From the IMG/VR virus record IMGVR_UViG_3300035661_000082, positions 1-52,694 of that record: 52,694 bases of DNA, one strand, 5' to 3'. The DNA comes from a virus. The notes below the pieces were generated by a model, which made no database searches, was not told the DNA's origin, and was given only the letters and a program-made list of their open reading frames with translations. Both the position numbers and the translations under genes were made by a program. Below, piece after piece: positions 17,942 to 24,132 of this stretch (positions are counted from its first letter, which is position 1; each line of letters begins with the position of its first letter).

Positions 17942-18973
17942 TCATTTCAGACTTACTCCTGCAAGGATGCTGAATGCGACTGCCGCTTGGAGCGGGACTT
18001 GTGCGTTACCGAGTCCTTTGATTCTTCCGGATCGGTCTTTAATTCCGGCCGCAACTCGCCCAATGTCTGGCTCGCTTTGCCACCAGCCCGAGTGAACCCC
18101 AATGGGAATCCCATCAGCCACTCCACCCACGCCGGATTGAGCTGGCCGATCTGACCACTGCGGATCATTGCTCCTGGTATGCTGTCCCGATCCGCTTGTG
18201 ATGGCGGAAGGGTACTGTTTTTCGCATCCTGTGCACTTGGTGTTGACCACATCATAACCACAGTCGCAAGTCCGCCCCCGCTGGTCGCTGAACATCCCTT
18301 GCGGTTGTGGTTCCCATTTACTGTTGGTGTCGGCCACATCTGCATATTTGAAACCTGATCCCTTAGATTCGCTGGCTTGATCCTGCCCGGCCTTGTAATC
18401 GTCGCTTCCCTCTCCAATGCTTTTGATGACTTTGGAGGCATCGAGTCTAGCGTGTTCGGTGTTGCCCATTGTTGCCATGCACCACCATCGTTCACGCTTG
18501 TGATTCGCCCCAACGTCGGCAGCAGATAAACACAGCCATTGCGCGTTATAGCCGATTTCAAAGATGTCTTTTGCGATAACTTCGAGGTAGTCTTTTGACT
18601 TAGATGTGATGGCTGCAACATTCTCCAAGAAGATGATTCGCGGTCGAACAATACTTGCGATTCGTAAAACTTCCCGGTAGAGACCGCTTCGTGTATCGCC
18701 CCCAATCCCTGCCTGACTTCCGGCGTTGCTAATATCTTGGCAAGGGAATCCTGCATGGATGATGTCCACTCGGCCGGTGTATTCGGATGGATCGAACAGC
18801 CGAACGTCACCCTCGTGCACATGCAAGTCTGGGAACCAACCACCTGCGGCTCTCTCTTGCAGGACTTGGCAGGCGTACTTATCCCACTCAATAGCAACGA
18901 TTGGTTTGTGTCCGAGGATAAGATCGGAAAGCAAGCCGCCTCCGATGCCGGAAAAAATGTGCATTGTTTGCAT
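17942..18973 (-). CDS. dcm: DNA cytosine-5 methyltransferase (Dcm-like)
   Basis: The protein has 343 residues. Conserved C5-methyltransferase motifs run in order: I (HIFSGIGGG), IV (GFPCQDIS with the catalytic Cys), VI (ENVAAI), VIII-like (KRERWW), and the C-terminal GLGNAQVP. It would methylate cytosine in phage DNA to evade restriction. The ATG has GAGGG ten bases upstream and lies 17 bases after the start of a second, same-strand ORF (17953-18990) that overlaps almost all of it in another frame. The region GGVADGIPIGVHSGWW is typical of phage Dcm proteins. The gene follows the TraR-like zinc finger. Confidence 0.9.
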   Translation of the reverse strand: MQTMHIFSGIGGGLLSDLILGHKPIVAIEWDKYACQVLQERAAGGWFPDLHVHEGDVRLFDPSEYTGRVDIIHAGFPCQDISNAGSQAGIGGDTRSGLYREVLRIASIVRPRIIFLENVAAITSKSKDYLEVIAKDIFEIGYNAQWLCLSAADVGANHKRERWWCMATMGNTEHARLDASKVIKSIGEGSDDYKAGQDQASESKGSGFKYADVADTNSKWEPQPQGMFSDQRGRTCDCGYDVVNTKCTGCEKQYPSAITSGSGQHTRSNDPQWSDRPAQSGVGGVADGIPIGVHSGWWQSEPDIGRVAAGIKDRSGRIKGLGNAQVPLQAAVAFSILAGVSLK

Positions 18974-18990
18974 AGCTCTTCATCCCTCAT
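17953..18990 (-). CDS. Overlapping second gene in the dcm locus (WPTP-type phage protein)
   Basis: An open frame of 345 residues reads the same strand as dcm in another frame and overlaps it over about 1,020 bases. The ATG sits on the TraR stop (ATGA) and has GAGG seven bases upstream, a better ribosome site than dcm itself. Its sequence is not random: it contains WATPNTLDSMPP, MWPTPTVNGNHNRKG, MWSTPSAQD and LNPAWVEWLMGFP, which I recall as signatures of a separate phage protein family found in other genomes. The last motif is the alternate reading of dcm GVADGIPIGV. The function is unknown. It could be a real dual-coded protein or a conserved shadow; the start signal and motif content favour real. 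Confidence 0.55.
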   Translation of the reverse strand: MRDEELCKQCTFFPASEAACFPILSSDTNQSLLLSGISTPAKSCKREPQVVGSQTCMCTRVTFGCSIHPNTPAEWTSSMQDSLAKILATPEVRQGLGAIHEAVSTGKFYESQVLFDRESSSWRMLQPSHLSQKTTSKLSQKTSLKSAITRNGCVYLLPTLGRITSVNDGGAWQQWATPNTLDSMPPKSSKALEREATITRPGRIKPANLRDQVSNMQMWPTPTVNGNHNRKGCSATSGGGLATVVMMWSTPSAQDAKNSTLPPSQADRDSIPGAMIRSGQIGQLNPAWVEWLMGFPLGFTRAGGKASQTLGELRPELKTDPEESKDSVTHKSRSKRQSHSASLQE

Positions 18991-19184
18991 TCATCAGCCT
19001 CGACACAGTGACTACAAACACCGTATCCAATGGGTGCCCTATCGTTTCGATCACTGCATTTAATGCACAGTGCTTCGCCACGCATTGGATTCATTGCCCC
19101 ATTAACCAGCACGTTCTGAATCTGGTTTTCGAGCCAAAGCTCTGAAAGCTCGCTGGCTTTGTCAAGGTTATCGCTATCGTTCAT
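18987..19184 (-). CDS. TraR/DksA-type C4 zinc finger protein
   Basis: The protein has 65 residues. A CIKC ... CSHC pair spaced by about 15 residues near the C-terminus matches the TraR/DksA zinc finger, and the short length matches the phage and conjugative TraR group. Such proteins bind the RNA polymerase secondary channel and can change host and phage promoter use. The stop overlaps the ATG of the second dcm-locus ORF. The upstream HTH gene overlaps its start, so the three are one unit. Confidence 0.75.
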   Translation of the reverse strand: MNDSDNLDKASELSELWLENQIQNVLVNGAMNPMRGEALCIKCSDRNDRAPIGYGVCSHCVEADE

Positions 19185-19549: not shown

Positions 19550-20050
19550 GTGAAAATTAAATTCTCGGCAATAACCGACCCAGACAAAATTATGGATGCA
19601 GTCCATAAAGATGTCTTCAATCTACGGTACGTTCCTGAATCACTCATAACTGAGGAAGTGGCAATGGCCGCTATGCTGGAAGACGGCTACATGCTCCAGT
19701 ACGTTCCAGACACGCTCAAGACTGAATCCTTGTTGCTTGCCGCTGTCAATCAAAACGGCGAATCACTCCAGTGCGTGCATGGATCTCTTATGACTGAGGC
19801 CGTGGTACTGGCTGCTGTGCAGCAAGACTGCTACGCACTCCGGTACGTTCCAGACGATCTCAAGAACGAATCAGTGGTGCTTTCCGCTGTGCAGCAAAGC
19901 GGCGAATTACTCCAGTATGTGCCCGAATCATTAAGGACTGAGGACGTAGTGATGGCTGCCGTAAAACAAGACATCGACGCGCTACGATACATTCTTGACC
20001 GGGCAATGTTCGATCTTATCGCAAATAAATTAGGCATCGAAACCGAATAA
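19550..20050 (+). CDS. DUF4116 repeat protein, first copy
   Basis: The protein has 166 residues from a GTG start. It is built from five repeats of about 24-25 residues with the pattern (A/M)L-x-YVP-(E/D)-x-L-x-TE-x-(V/L)-x-AAV, plus a capping segment (LDRAMFDLIANKLGIETE). DUF4116 repeats occur in bacteria and large viruses; their molecular role is not established. The first 49 bases after the start codon G are identical to those of the next gene, so the two arose by tandem duplication. The ribosome site is weak. Confidence 0.8.
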   Translation: MKIKFSAITDPDKIMDAVHKDVFNLRYVPESLITEEVAMAAMLEDGYMLQYVPDTLKTESLLLAAVNQNGESLQCVHGSLMTEAVVLAAVQQDCYALRYVPDDLKNESVVLSAVQQSGELLQYVPESLRTEDVVMAAVKQDIDALRYILDRAMFDLIANKLGIETE

Positions 20051-20088: not shown

Positions 20089-20517
20089 ATGAAAATTAAA
20101 TTCTCGGCAATAACCGACCCAGACAAAATTATGGATGCCGTGCGGAAAAATGGCTTCATGCTCAATTACGTGCCTGAGTCGCTAATGACGGATGACATGG
20201 TTCTTGCTGCCGTAAAACAAGATGATGACGCTCTACAGTGTGTGCCTGAATCGAAAATTACCGAGGAGGTGGCACTTGTAGCTGTAAGTCAAAACGGCTA
20301 CGCGCTACGGCGAGTGCCTGAATCAAAAATGTCAGAATCTGTTGTGCTGGCTGCCGTAAAACAAAACGGCGAAGCACTTCGGCACGTCCCAGAATCTAAA
20401 ATAAATGAGTCCGTAGCACTTGCTGCTGTACGGAAAGACCGCTACGCGCTAAGGCACGTGCTAGATAGAGCAATGTTCGACCGCGTGGCTGATGTACTTG
20501 GCATCGAAACAGAATAA
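20089..20517 (+). CDS. DUF4116 repeat protein, second copy
   Basis: The protein has 142 residues, four repeats and the same cap (LDRAMFDRVADVLGIETE). It is 24 residues shorter than its neighbour, which is one repeat. The start is ATG and the neighbour's is GTG. Beyond the shared 49-base beginning the DNA has diverged clearly, so either the duplication is old and the 5' end is conserved for a reason, or that segment was recently converted. Confidence 0.8.
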   Translation: MKIKFSAITDPDKIMDAVRKNGFMLNYVPESLMTDDMVLAAVKQDDDALQCVPESKITEEVALVAVSQNGYALRRVPESKMSESVVLAAVKQNGEALRHVPESKINESVALAAVRKDRYALRHVLDRAMFDRVADVLGIETE

Positions 20518-22039: not shown

Positions 22040-22552
22040 CTATCTCTTTTTTGCGATTACAAAGTTTTCAGGAAAATCATTTATGTTAAATGCTACAAAC
22101 GTGCTTGAAGCGTCCGTGTTTTTCTTGCCAATCCCAGGCACATGCCCAGCGGGTAATGCTGCTAACTTGCGCATGTACCATATTCTGAAAACCTTTAAGT
22201 CGCATAAAATCCACGAATGCAAGTTTGTTTCTTCTGCGTCAGAAAATCCGTAGAAAAAATAATCGCCCCAACCTTCAATAATTTTTGTTAGTTCTGTTTT
22301 TGTTCCGCTTGGCCTTCCTGCTCTGATCGTAAACTCGTCGCCATATTTGCTCGCGTATTGGTGCTTCCTAACTCGGCAACCAATTCGCACAGCGTCGAGT
22401 CTTAAAACCATTAGATCGGTATTCCTTTCAGCGTCTTCTTCATGAGGTGGTTCGCTAATGAGGTAAATGCCAAGGATAGACTTTATTTCTGTCAAAAACC
22501 GATCAGACCATCGTTTATCTGCTTTCCAGTCGCCCTTAATCGCCACTTTCAT
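22040..22552 (-). CDS. Hypothetical protein, possible nuclease fold
   Basis: From the ATG at 22552 the protein has 170 residues and its start overlaps the end of the ParB-MTase gene by 17 bases. A TTG at 22567 is an alternative. A conserved-looking core (ERNTDLMVLRLDAVRIGCRVRK, GDEFTIRAGRPSG, TELTKIIEGWGDYFFYG) resembles a phage family I recall, whose Asp and basic residues suggest a PD-(D/E)XK-like fold. That is an inference. Its coupling to a methyltransferase makes a role in restriction evasion or DNA processing plausible. Confidence 0.55.
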   Translation of the reverse strand: MKVAIKGDWKADKRWSDRFLTEIKSILGIYLISEPPHEEDAERNTDLMVLRLDAVRIGCRVRKHQYASKYGDEFTIRAGRPSGTKTELTKIIEGWGDYFFYGFSDAEETNLHSWILCDLKVFRIWYMRKLAALPAGHVPGIGKKNTDASSTFVAFNINDFPENFVIAKKR

Positions 22553-23723
22553 TGCCCCATGTATCAAACCCTTCGATTGACCGTCGGTTGAACATATCTA
22601 ATCTGCGTCCTGCGGTAACGCGGCGCACAACTTCATAGAATTCCTCTGGCTTTTCACTGTGCGCACCACGCGGCGCATTAAAGCAAACTGGAAACGCCTT
22701 GGTGTCGATAAATTCTGGCGTGCCTTTTCTAGCATAAATGGCAAATTCACAGTTGTATTGAGGCAATCCGATTGGCTGGAAACCACCGGGTTTATGCCAT
22801 GTGAATGTGCAAACATACTTCATCCCCCATGCTTCAATTAACCTCAACGCCATTGGTAGGAACTTGTGCGTTGTCCATACCCAAACATGGCAATCATCAG
22901 CAGCCGGTATTTCAAGTAGCCTCAATTCATCCTCGGACATAGTAGGATAATCAAACTCAACTTGGTTTGGCCTAGCGTCACGTTCGATCTTCTGCATTGC
23001 CCATGGCGGGTCTAAAACAATAACGTCATAAAGACCTTGTGCCGCTTTAACCTCCATTGCTGAAACGCTTTCAAGCTTGTCAATAATTTCTTCCCTGCGC
23101 TCTTCGCGCTTAACATCCGCCATCGACTTTTCACCAGAAATAATTTCATAAGCACGATTGGGTGATTTTTCGATTAACGCAGCGGCCTTGATAACTGCCT
23201 GTCTTGGTACTGTTACCACCGGGGTATATCCAGGAATGGCCTTTTCTACAACTGCAATAGCTTCGGCATACTTGCCTGCGCGCCTAACAGTGGGCTGGCT
23301 TACACCGTGTTCTGCGGCTAGTTTGTCTGCGGTGCGTAACCGGTGCTCAATTTGATCACCGGTTGCCTTCGATACGCCAATGCCGCCATCATTCTGAGCC
23401 TTCTTTGCCCGGTTGTATCTGCGCCCAAGCAGCAAAGTAAATTGATCTGGCGTAATGTTTCGCCGTCCGAGTTGATTTGCATCCATCCAATCCATTGCAG
23501 AATCTCGGTCTTCAAACTCTTTAGCCACCGTAGTAAACGTAATCCCAAGCCGGGTGCAAATCTCATAACGATTGTGCCCATCAACAAGTGTGTTGCCCCA
23601 AACCACAAGCGGATCACGGCAACCTTCGGCAATGATGTTTGCCTCAAGCTGCGCATACTCTTCGCGGCTTAATGGTGGAATGAGCGACTTAAATTCGGTG
23701 TCAATTGTGATTTTGATAGGCAT
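22536..23723 (-). CDS. ParB-like nuclease domain fused to MT-A70 adenine methyltransferase
   Basis: The start at 23723 has AAGAGG seven bases upstream, so the open frame that continues to 23945 is ignored. The protein has 395 residues. The N-terminus is a ParB/Srx-type domain (LSREEYAQLEANI, then LVDGHNRYEIC), followed by an HTH (AEHGVSQPTVRRAGKYAEAI). The C-terminal half is an MT-A70 methyltransferase with the catalytic DPPW (VIVLDPPWAM) and a late WGNESGD tail. Such fusions methylate adenine in phage DNA. The ribosome site lies within a strong hairpin (23729-23796), so translation is probably controlled. Confidence 0.85.
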   Translation of the reverse strand: MPIKITIDTEFKSLIPPLSREEYAQLEANIIAEGCRDPLVVWGNTLVDGHNRYEICTRLGITFTTVAKEFEDRDSAMDWMDANQLGRRNITPDQFTLLLGRRYNRAKKAQNDGGIGVSKATGDQIEHRLRTADKLAAEHGVSQPTVRRAGKYAEAIAVVEKAIPGYTPVVTVPRQAVIKAAALIEKSPNRAYEIISGEKSMADVKREERREEIIDKLESVSAMEVKAAQGLYDVIVLDPPWAMQKIERDARPNQVEFDYPTMSEDELRLLEIPAADDCHVWVWTTHKFLPMALRLIEAWGMKYVCTFTWHKPGGFQPIGLPQYNCEFAIYARKGTPEFIDTKAFPVCFNAPRGAHSEKPEEFYEVVRRVTAGRRLDMFNRRSIEGFDTWGNESGD

Positions 23724-23728
23724 AAAAA

Positions 23729-23796
23729 AACCTCTTGGCGTTTTGTGAAGCACCACGACCCGCACGGCGTGGCACTTCACAAAAAAACAAGAGGTT
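23729..23796 (-). promoter_or_regulatory. Shine-Dalgarno-sequestering hairpin before the ParB-MTase gene
   Basis: In the leftward transcript AACCTCTT (complement of 23789-23796) can pair with AAGAGGTT (complement of 23729-23736), which contains the ribosome site of the gene at 23723. Between them a 13-base stem (23745-23757 with 23768-23780) pairs completely, with two G-U wobbles, around a 10-base loop. The inner stem holds the two outer arms together. This is the layout of a translational switch. No terminator T-run follows on either strand. Confidence 0.65.
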
Positions 23797-24132
23797 AAGG
23801 GTGCGGCCTGTTGATGAGGATTGTACCAAAGTTCAAATAAGCCAGCAATGAAAAAAGCCAGGCGCCCCCCCGACCACAACCAATGCCAACAAACGCATAG
23901 GCTGCGTAAGCCATTTTTACAGCTTACCGCTACATCGGCATTCATAACGATTATTTTCGCCTTAGAATCCGTCTAATTAAGTTTAATTGGCATGTGGCGT
24001 TAACACCCGCGCAGAAAAAACCAACTACGCCAACCAACATCCAAGATCGCCTACAAAACCCAGAACTGGGGGGCGTTGATGGTCATTTTTGATTTTACAG
24101 TGGTTATGCAGAAGTTTTAAGAAGCTAAGTCA

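Follow-up and report, generated by a model that had tools for sequence, protein, structure and literature searches.

Overlapping reading frames at the methyltransferase locus

The window analysed here is the whole of viral record IMGVR_UViG_3300035661_000082 from IMG/VR, 52,694 nucleotides in length. Its minus strand carries two long reading frames that occupy nearly the same bases: dcm, whose product we call alpha, and a second frame in +1 of dcm, ORF2, whose proposed product we call beta. The features of the locus, in window coordinates, are the following.

18998..19001, minus strand: GAGG, Shine-Dalgarno-like, seven bases 5' of the ORF2 ATG
18987..19184, minus strand: TraR-like zinc-finger ORF, 65 aa, directly upstream of ORF2
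17953..18990, minus strand: ORF2, proposed beta chain in the +1 frame of dcm, 345 aa, stop-free, with a conserved N-terminal region, W-x-TP repeats and a proposed motif IX
17942..18973, minus strand: dcm, proposed C5-cytosine methyltransferase alpha chain, 343 aa, with motifs I-VIII and X and no motif IX recognised
18464..18973, minus strand: dcm motifs I-VIII (alpha residues 1-170), where selection on the dcm frame dominates
18469..18684, minus strand: conserved ORF2 residues 103-174, lying over dcm motifs, under dual constraint
18451..18468, minus strand: ORF2 WATPNT (residues 175-180)
18322..18336, minus strand: ORF2 WPTPT (219-223), on the same bases as dcm VADTN
18235..18249, minus strand: ORF2 WSTPS (248-252), on the same bases as dcm VVNTK
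18103..18141, minus strand: ORF2 LNPAWVEWLMGFP (284-296), proposed C5-methyltransferase motif IX
18077..18370, minus strand: dcm residues 202-299, predicted to be disordered, where selection on the ORF2 frame dominates in relatives
17993..18082, minus strand: dcm WWQSEPDIGRVAAGIKDRSGRIKGLGNAQVP (298-327), motif X region, separated here by a longer gap from the ORF2 motif IX

The first-pass annotation had described dcm and a stop-free ORF2 of 345 codons sharing about 1,020 bases, and the coordinates bear this out; the start of dcm lies 17 nt downstream of that of ORF2. It had correctly placed the ORF2 ATG (18990) on the stop of the TraR-like ORF, where the two overlap as ATGA, with the GAGG at seven bases. 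The four motifs that it named in ORF2 (WATPNT, WPTPT, WSTPS and LNPAWVEWLMGFP) are present at the residues listed, and ORF2 LNPAWVEWLMGFPLGF and dcm ...SGVGGVADGIPIGV are indeed read from the same bases. The ATGA overlap suggests that translation of ORF2 may be coupled to that of the TraR-like ORF. Among 93 relatives, T177 and P178 of ORF2 are nearly invariant; columns 249-251 (P, T, P) are also nearly invariant in relatives.

The alpha chain

The dcm product matches PF00145 (E 7e-37) over residues 1-175 only, and its profile aligns with canonical C5-methyltransferases over residues 2-165 only. It carries GFPCQD, LENV and motif VIII, and the defining elements of PF00145 (motif I, PCQ of motif IV, ENV of motif VI, and motif VIII) are all present, with invariant columns in the alignment. 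Aligned with M.HhaI by VIA-align, the AF2 model of alpha reaches a Z of about 24. The pLDDT of the model is mostly above 80 at residues 1-175 and about 313-340 and below 50 at 202-299, giving a large domain with a disordered gap at the place expected for the small domain. The alpha alignment shows no motif IX in the interval from VIII to X, and a motif-IX HMM does not score above chance in the alphas. The dcm product does not combine target recognition and motif IX in one chain, as a single-chain C5-methyltransferase does; it has the composition of an M.EcoHK31I-like large chain, with motifs I-VIII and X and without IX. We propose that residues about 202-299 of alpha are mostly a read-through shadow of ORF2.

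Openness of the second frame

In the window gene, the +1 frame stays open for 339 codons, longer than expected from 1,000 synonymous-codon shuffles of dcm (p = 0.014), and the +2 frame gives p = 0.92 under the same null. Searches of viral contigs yielded 73 relatives by dcm and 80 by ORF2, and annotated phages were added. The set for the openness test comprised 60 distinct loci picked by dcm alone, without reference to ORF2. Of these, 98.3% are open beyond the codon-shuffle null in +1, against 3.3% in +2; 87 stops occur in +1 where 354 are expected, and +2 shows no deficit of stops. The same shuffles applied to 141 distinct loci give significant openness in 98.6% for +1 and 3.5% for +2. ORF2 is almost certainly a real gene.

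Selection in both frames

Substitutions were counted by dcm codon position in 30 close pairs, two of which duplicate others. Over motifs I-VIII the counts at positions 1/2/3 are 212/75/489, and from motif VIII to the end of ORF2 motif IX they are 658/276/303; the genes that flank the locus in these pairs give the usual pattern, 1321/819/3113. Over motifs I-VIII the fastest position is thus the third of dcm, and from VIII to X it is the third of ORF2. Since the third position of ORF2 is the fastest between VIII and the end of IX, the DNA of that stretch evolves mainly as ORF2.

The imprint of ORF2 is also visible where dcm dominates. The third-position rate of dcm drops from 0.15 to 0.071 at dcm residues 100-150, under the conserved N-terminal part of ORF2, and stands at 0.25 in flanking genes. 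Synonymous codons are conserved beyond the requirements of the amino acids, with z of 4 to 10 over dcm residues 97-168 and z = 38 under the LNPxWVEWLMGFP signature. Of 281 real genes, 259 carry this signature, as does 1 of 5,620 synonymous shuffles, and W-x-TP is counted 2.7 times in real genes versus 0.46 in shuffles. Taken together, the openness, phase, synonymous-constraint and signature tests place the second frame under selection on the same DNA that encodes alpha. The first-pass annotation had asked for substitution rates in both frames, and the ORF2 frame turns out not to be neutral and to carry a constraint of its own.

Its suggestion that one gene had overprinted the other holds insofar as two frames are selected, but the overprinting looks reciprocal and not one-way: each frame appears to be selected along part of the shared DNA and to be a shadow along the rest. 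Searching for ORF2 in other phages, which the first-pass annotation had also proposed, does return matches lying in +1 of dcm. For the N-terminal half of ORF2, however, shuffled dcm codons yield an equally good profile similarity, that is, a shadow of dcm, so the tblastn, PHROG and hhalign matches of this half are not evidence by themselves.

Distribution and architecture of the gene pair

The expectation that other phages would show the same pair, giving two conserved proteins from one DNA, was borne out widely: both genes occur in the same relative frame in 160 of 161 viral and phage loci. A search for the signature WV[EA]WLMG[FW] in bacterial and archaeal genomes gave 270 confirmed relatives, and the best 80 of these, on bacterial or archaeal contigs, all have the pair in that frame (80/80). 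The taxa include Proteobacteria, Firmicutes, Bacteroidota, Planctomycetota, Spirochaetes, Actinobacteria, Synergistota and a Poseidoniaceae bin. The pair resides in phages, prophages and plasmids, with plasmid copies in Bacteroides and Acinetobacter. Copies in E. coli prophages were found by DNA search, among them L333 with both frames open. Another, from a different strain, in the E. coli PCP07014 prophage (L334, 2498-3259), is decayed, with stops of alpha and beta at the same place. In a Synergistaceae locus (L229, 1144-2646) alpha is seemingly split after motif I by an HNH-nuclease-like insertion.

In 306 of 320 loci, motifs I-VIII plus X lie in one ORF and motif IX in +1. Four loci (L174, L223, L267 and L307) have an alpha with motifs I-VIII only, and the beta frame carries IX and then X; with motif X also in the ORF2 frame, the chains there are fully complementary. 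A viral scan with the L174 ORF2 returned one locus. Three loci of one lineage (L131, L134, L136) have motifs I-VIII and the beta motif IX in a shared frame and X in another, so that they have either truly re-fused or have a frameshift in common.

The start codons of the two genes are often close together. Of 298 loci, 100 have the beta ATG at +4 from the alpha start, as a twin RTGAATG, 24 have it 5 nt ahead of that start and 20 have it 7 nt beyond; in loci lacking a nearby ATG, the first beta ATG is found at a median of +163, as in Diva gp50. At the distal end, beta motif IX and alpha EPxVGRVAxG are read from the same bases in 251 loci. In 20 loci including the window, beta motif IX and alpha EPxVGRV..LGN lie on separate DNA and both are kept. 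This persistence after decoupling suggests that either frame needs its own element.

Identity of ORF2

The only strong PHROG match of ORF2 is phrog_1008 (E 9e-18), and part of this match is dcm shadow. The match covers 37-287 of the 329 positions of PHROG 1008, which is named 'DNA methyltransferase', a name silent on any overlap or beta role. PHROG 1008 probably consists of this nested frame, having been built from gene calls that chose it. The first-pass annotation had linked the ORF2 motifs to another phage family; the PHROG 1008 match agrees with a phage family, but one that is not unrelated and is most likely this nested frame itself. ORF2 has no match in Pfam or NCBIfam, its relatives find nothing consistent there, and a PDB sequence search with the ORF2 profile gives chance matches only. 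The AF2 model of ORF2 alone has a pLDDT of 61 and no PDB match by Foldseek.

ORF2 LNPxWVEWLMGFPxGW resembles the canonical motif IX pattern LTPRECxRLxGFP, and the best hhalign match of ORF2 to canonical methyltransferases, a weak one (E 0.08), sits on motif IX. A short motif-IX HMM distinguishes beta from shuffles to a moderate degree only, and the four beta proteins that continue into motif X have no meaningful hhalign match to canonical enzymes. We read ORF2 as a probable beta chain that would provide what alpha lacks, target recognition and motif IX.

Comparison with known two-chain enzymes

M.EcoHK31I, like M.EaeI, is a two-polypeptide C5-methyltransferase; it recognises YGGCCR. The small chain of M.EcoHK31I is reportedly encoded within the large one in another frame. 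The large subunit of M.EcoHK31I carries motifs I-VIII and X and the small subunit motif IX, and the target recognition domain is predicted in the large subunit (PMC3404938). With the proposed motif IX in ORF2, the window pair would have the same split across chains. Unlike in M.EcoHK31I, ORF2 begins upstream of dcm and covers nearly all of it, substitution phase appears to put the target-recognition stretch in beta and not in alpha as predicted there, and most loci are phage or prophage. M.AquI also consists of two subunits, with the catalytic part and the distal part on separate chains (PMC3404938). Its division into I-VIII and IX-X is that of L174, L223, L267 and L307, but here the two genes share most of their bases, read in different frames.

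The nested frame has been annotated before. DIVA_50 of Paenibacillus phage Diva, a 'g49 internal gene', and its relatives are the same +1 nested ORF as ORF2, and Fernvirus records label the nested ORF an internal gene or a second methyltransferase, giving no function or conservation. In its sections on these phages, the Diva-group phage paper does not discuss the nested ORF. A literature search that left most subscription journals outside its scope found no description of a nested phage C5-methyltransferase gene. A precedent exists in M.EcoHK31I, and the breadth of such pairs appears undescribed in the literature covered.

A probable two-chain methyltransferase from overlapping genes

We consider it probable that the two fully overlapping genes of the locus specify a C5-cytosine DNA methyltransferase made of two chains. 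The dcm frame would give alpha, in which the stretch that shadows ORF2 links the AdoMet-binding catalytic domain of motifs I-VIII to motif X. ORF2 would be translated from its own ATG, coupled to the upstream TraR-like gene, into beta, in which a region encoded over dcm motifs IV-VIII would be followed by the W-x-TP repeats and LNPxWVEWLMGFP as the small domain, providing target recognition and motif IX. The two chains, both presumably required for activity, would assemble and methylate the phage DNA, probably as a protection against host restriction.

Programmed frameshifting would produce a different protein from the same DNA: a +1 shift past motif VIII and a shift back before X would yield a single long chain and no beta protein. 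The change of the selected frame right past VIII and its reversal at X match two such shifts, and L131, L134 and L136 do have I-VIII and IX in one frame. Yet the ORF2 frame is also open and constrained over motifs I-VIII, which shifts do not need, about half of the loci have twin start codons at -5, +4 or +7, and the L174-type alpha ends after motif VIII. The twin starts speak for two chains, as does the constraint that ORF2 shows before the junction, and we regard frameshifting as unlikely.

It is similarly improbable that ORF2 specifies a genuine protein of different function, such as an anti-restriction or regulatory one, that overprints dcm and forms no part of the methyltransferase. This reading fits the finding that phrog_1008 is the only statistically strong match to a known fold or family. 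In the loci examined, however, ORF2 always lies over a C5-methyltransferase and never alone, alpha is left without a recognisable motif IX, and the beta signature conforms to the pattern of motif IX, with X following in four loci. That ORF2 is an untranslated by-product of dcm composition, conserved solely as its shadow, is scarcely credible: synonymously shuffled dcm does reproduce the profile matches of the N-terminal half, but the codon-shuffle, phase and synonymous-constraint tests, which control for the dcm amino acids, reject this reading, and between VIII and X it is dcm itself that is the shadow.

Gene callers keep one frame, and the partner is dropped or labelled hypothetical. Many phage and bacterial proteins annotated as 'Dcm' are therefore probably half-enzymes, and if the enzyme has two chains, dcm cloned alone would give a false negative. 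The locus offers a clean, testable case of two frames selected in different stretches of one DNA, and the decoupled and non-returning variants illustrate the ways in which genes can come to overlap like this and separate again.

Nested frames in single-chain enzymes of Firmicutes

Ordinary single-chain relatives served as a control for +1 openness. The +1 signal is not significant in E. coli Dcm and in two of the other four controls; it is significant in the single-chain enzymes of Listeria and Enterococcus. Among 59 prophage relatives, +1 openness is significant in all (median stretch 163 codons) and +2 openness in none. These Firmicutes prophage enzymes (L329:1501-2622, L335-L414) have motifs IX and X in frame and a hidden +1 ORF of about 140-190 codons, with the sequence MTSQQYQMNLFEESEV...SLSDILEENVPEKYFLS. 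Synonymous constraint extends from dcm codon about 46 to about 195, and the pattern of substitutions just past motif VIII (61/37/33) is that of the +1 frame. This frame reads LSDILEENVPEKYFLS there, a segment that other enzymes have in frame. Homology of the Firmicutes nested ORF to ORF2 was considered and set aside: hhalign gives E 5e-15, but shuffled-codon shadows score as high.

These enzymes suggest a wider family of frame-split methyltransferases. Nested +1 genes might be general in phage C5-methyltransferases, with the frame splitting right past motif VIII and, in every case, a second chain begun upstream and encoded over the catalytic domain, a generalisation that we see as evenly poised between holding and failing. 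The frame would then return after LSDILEExVPEKYFLS in the Firmicutes single-chain enzymes, after motif IX in the group of the window, and never in the L174-type. If true, few reciprocally overprinted families in DNA phages would be larger.

Other reading frames of the window

Two neighbouring paralogous ORFs on the plus strand (19550-20050 and 20089-20517) consist of SESLMTEEVVLAAVKQNGEALQYVPE-type repeats, which we take to be reminiscent of DUF4116. On the minus strand, a 469-aa ORF (22536-23945) shows by eye ParB-like and adenine-methyltransferase-like (DPPW) sequence, and the phage may carry a second methyltransferase there.
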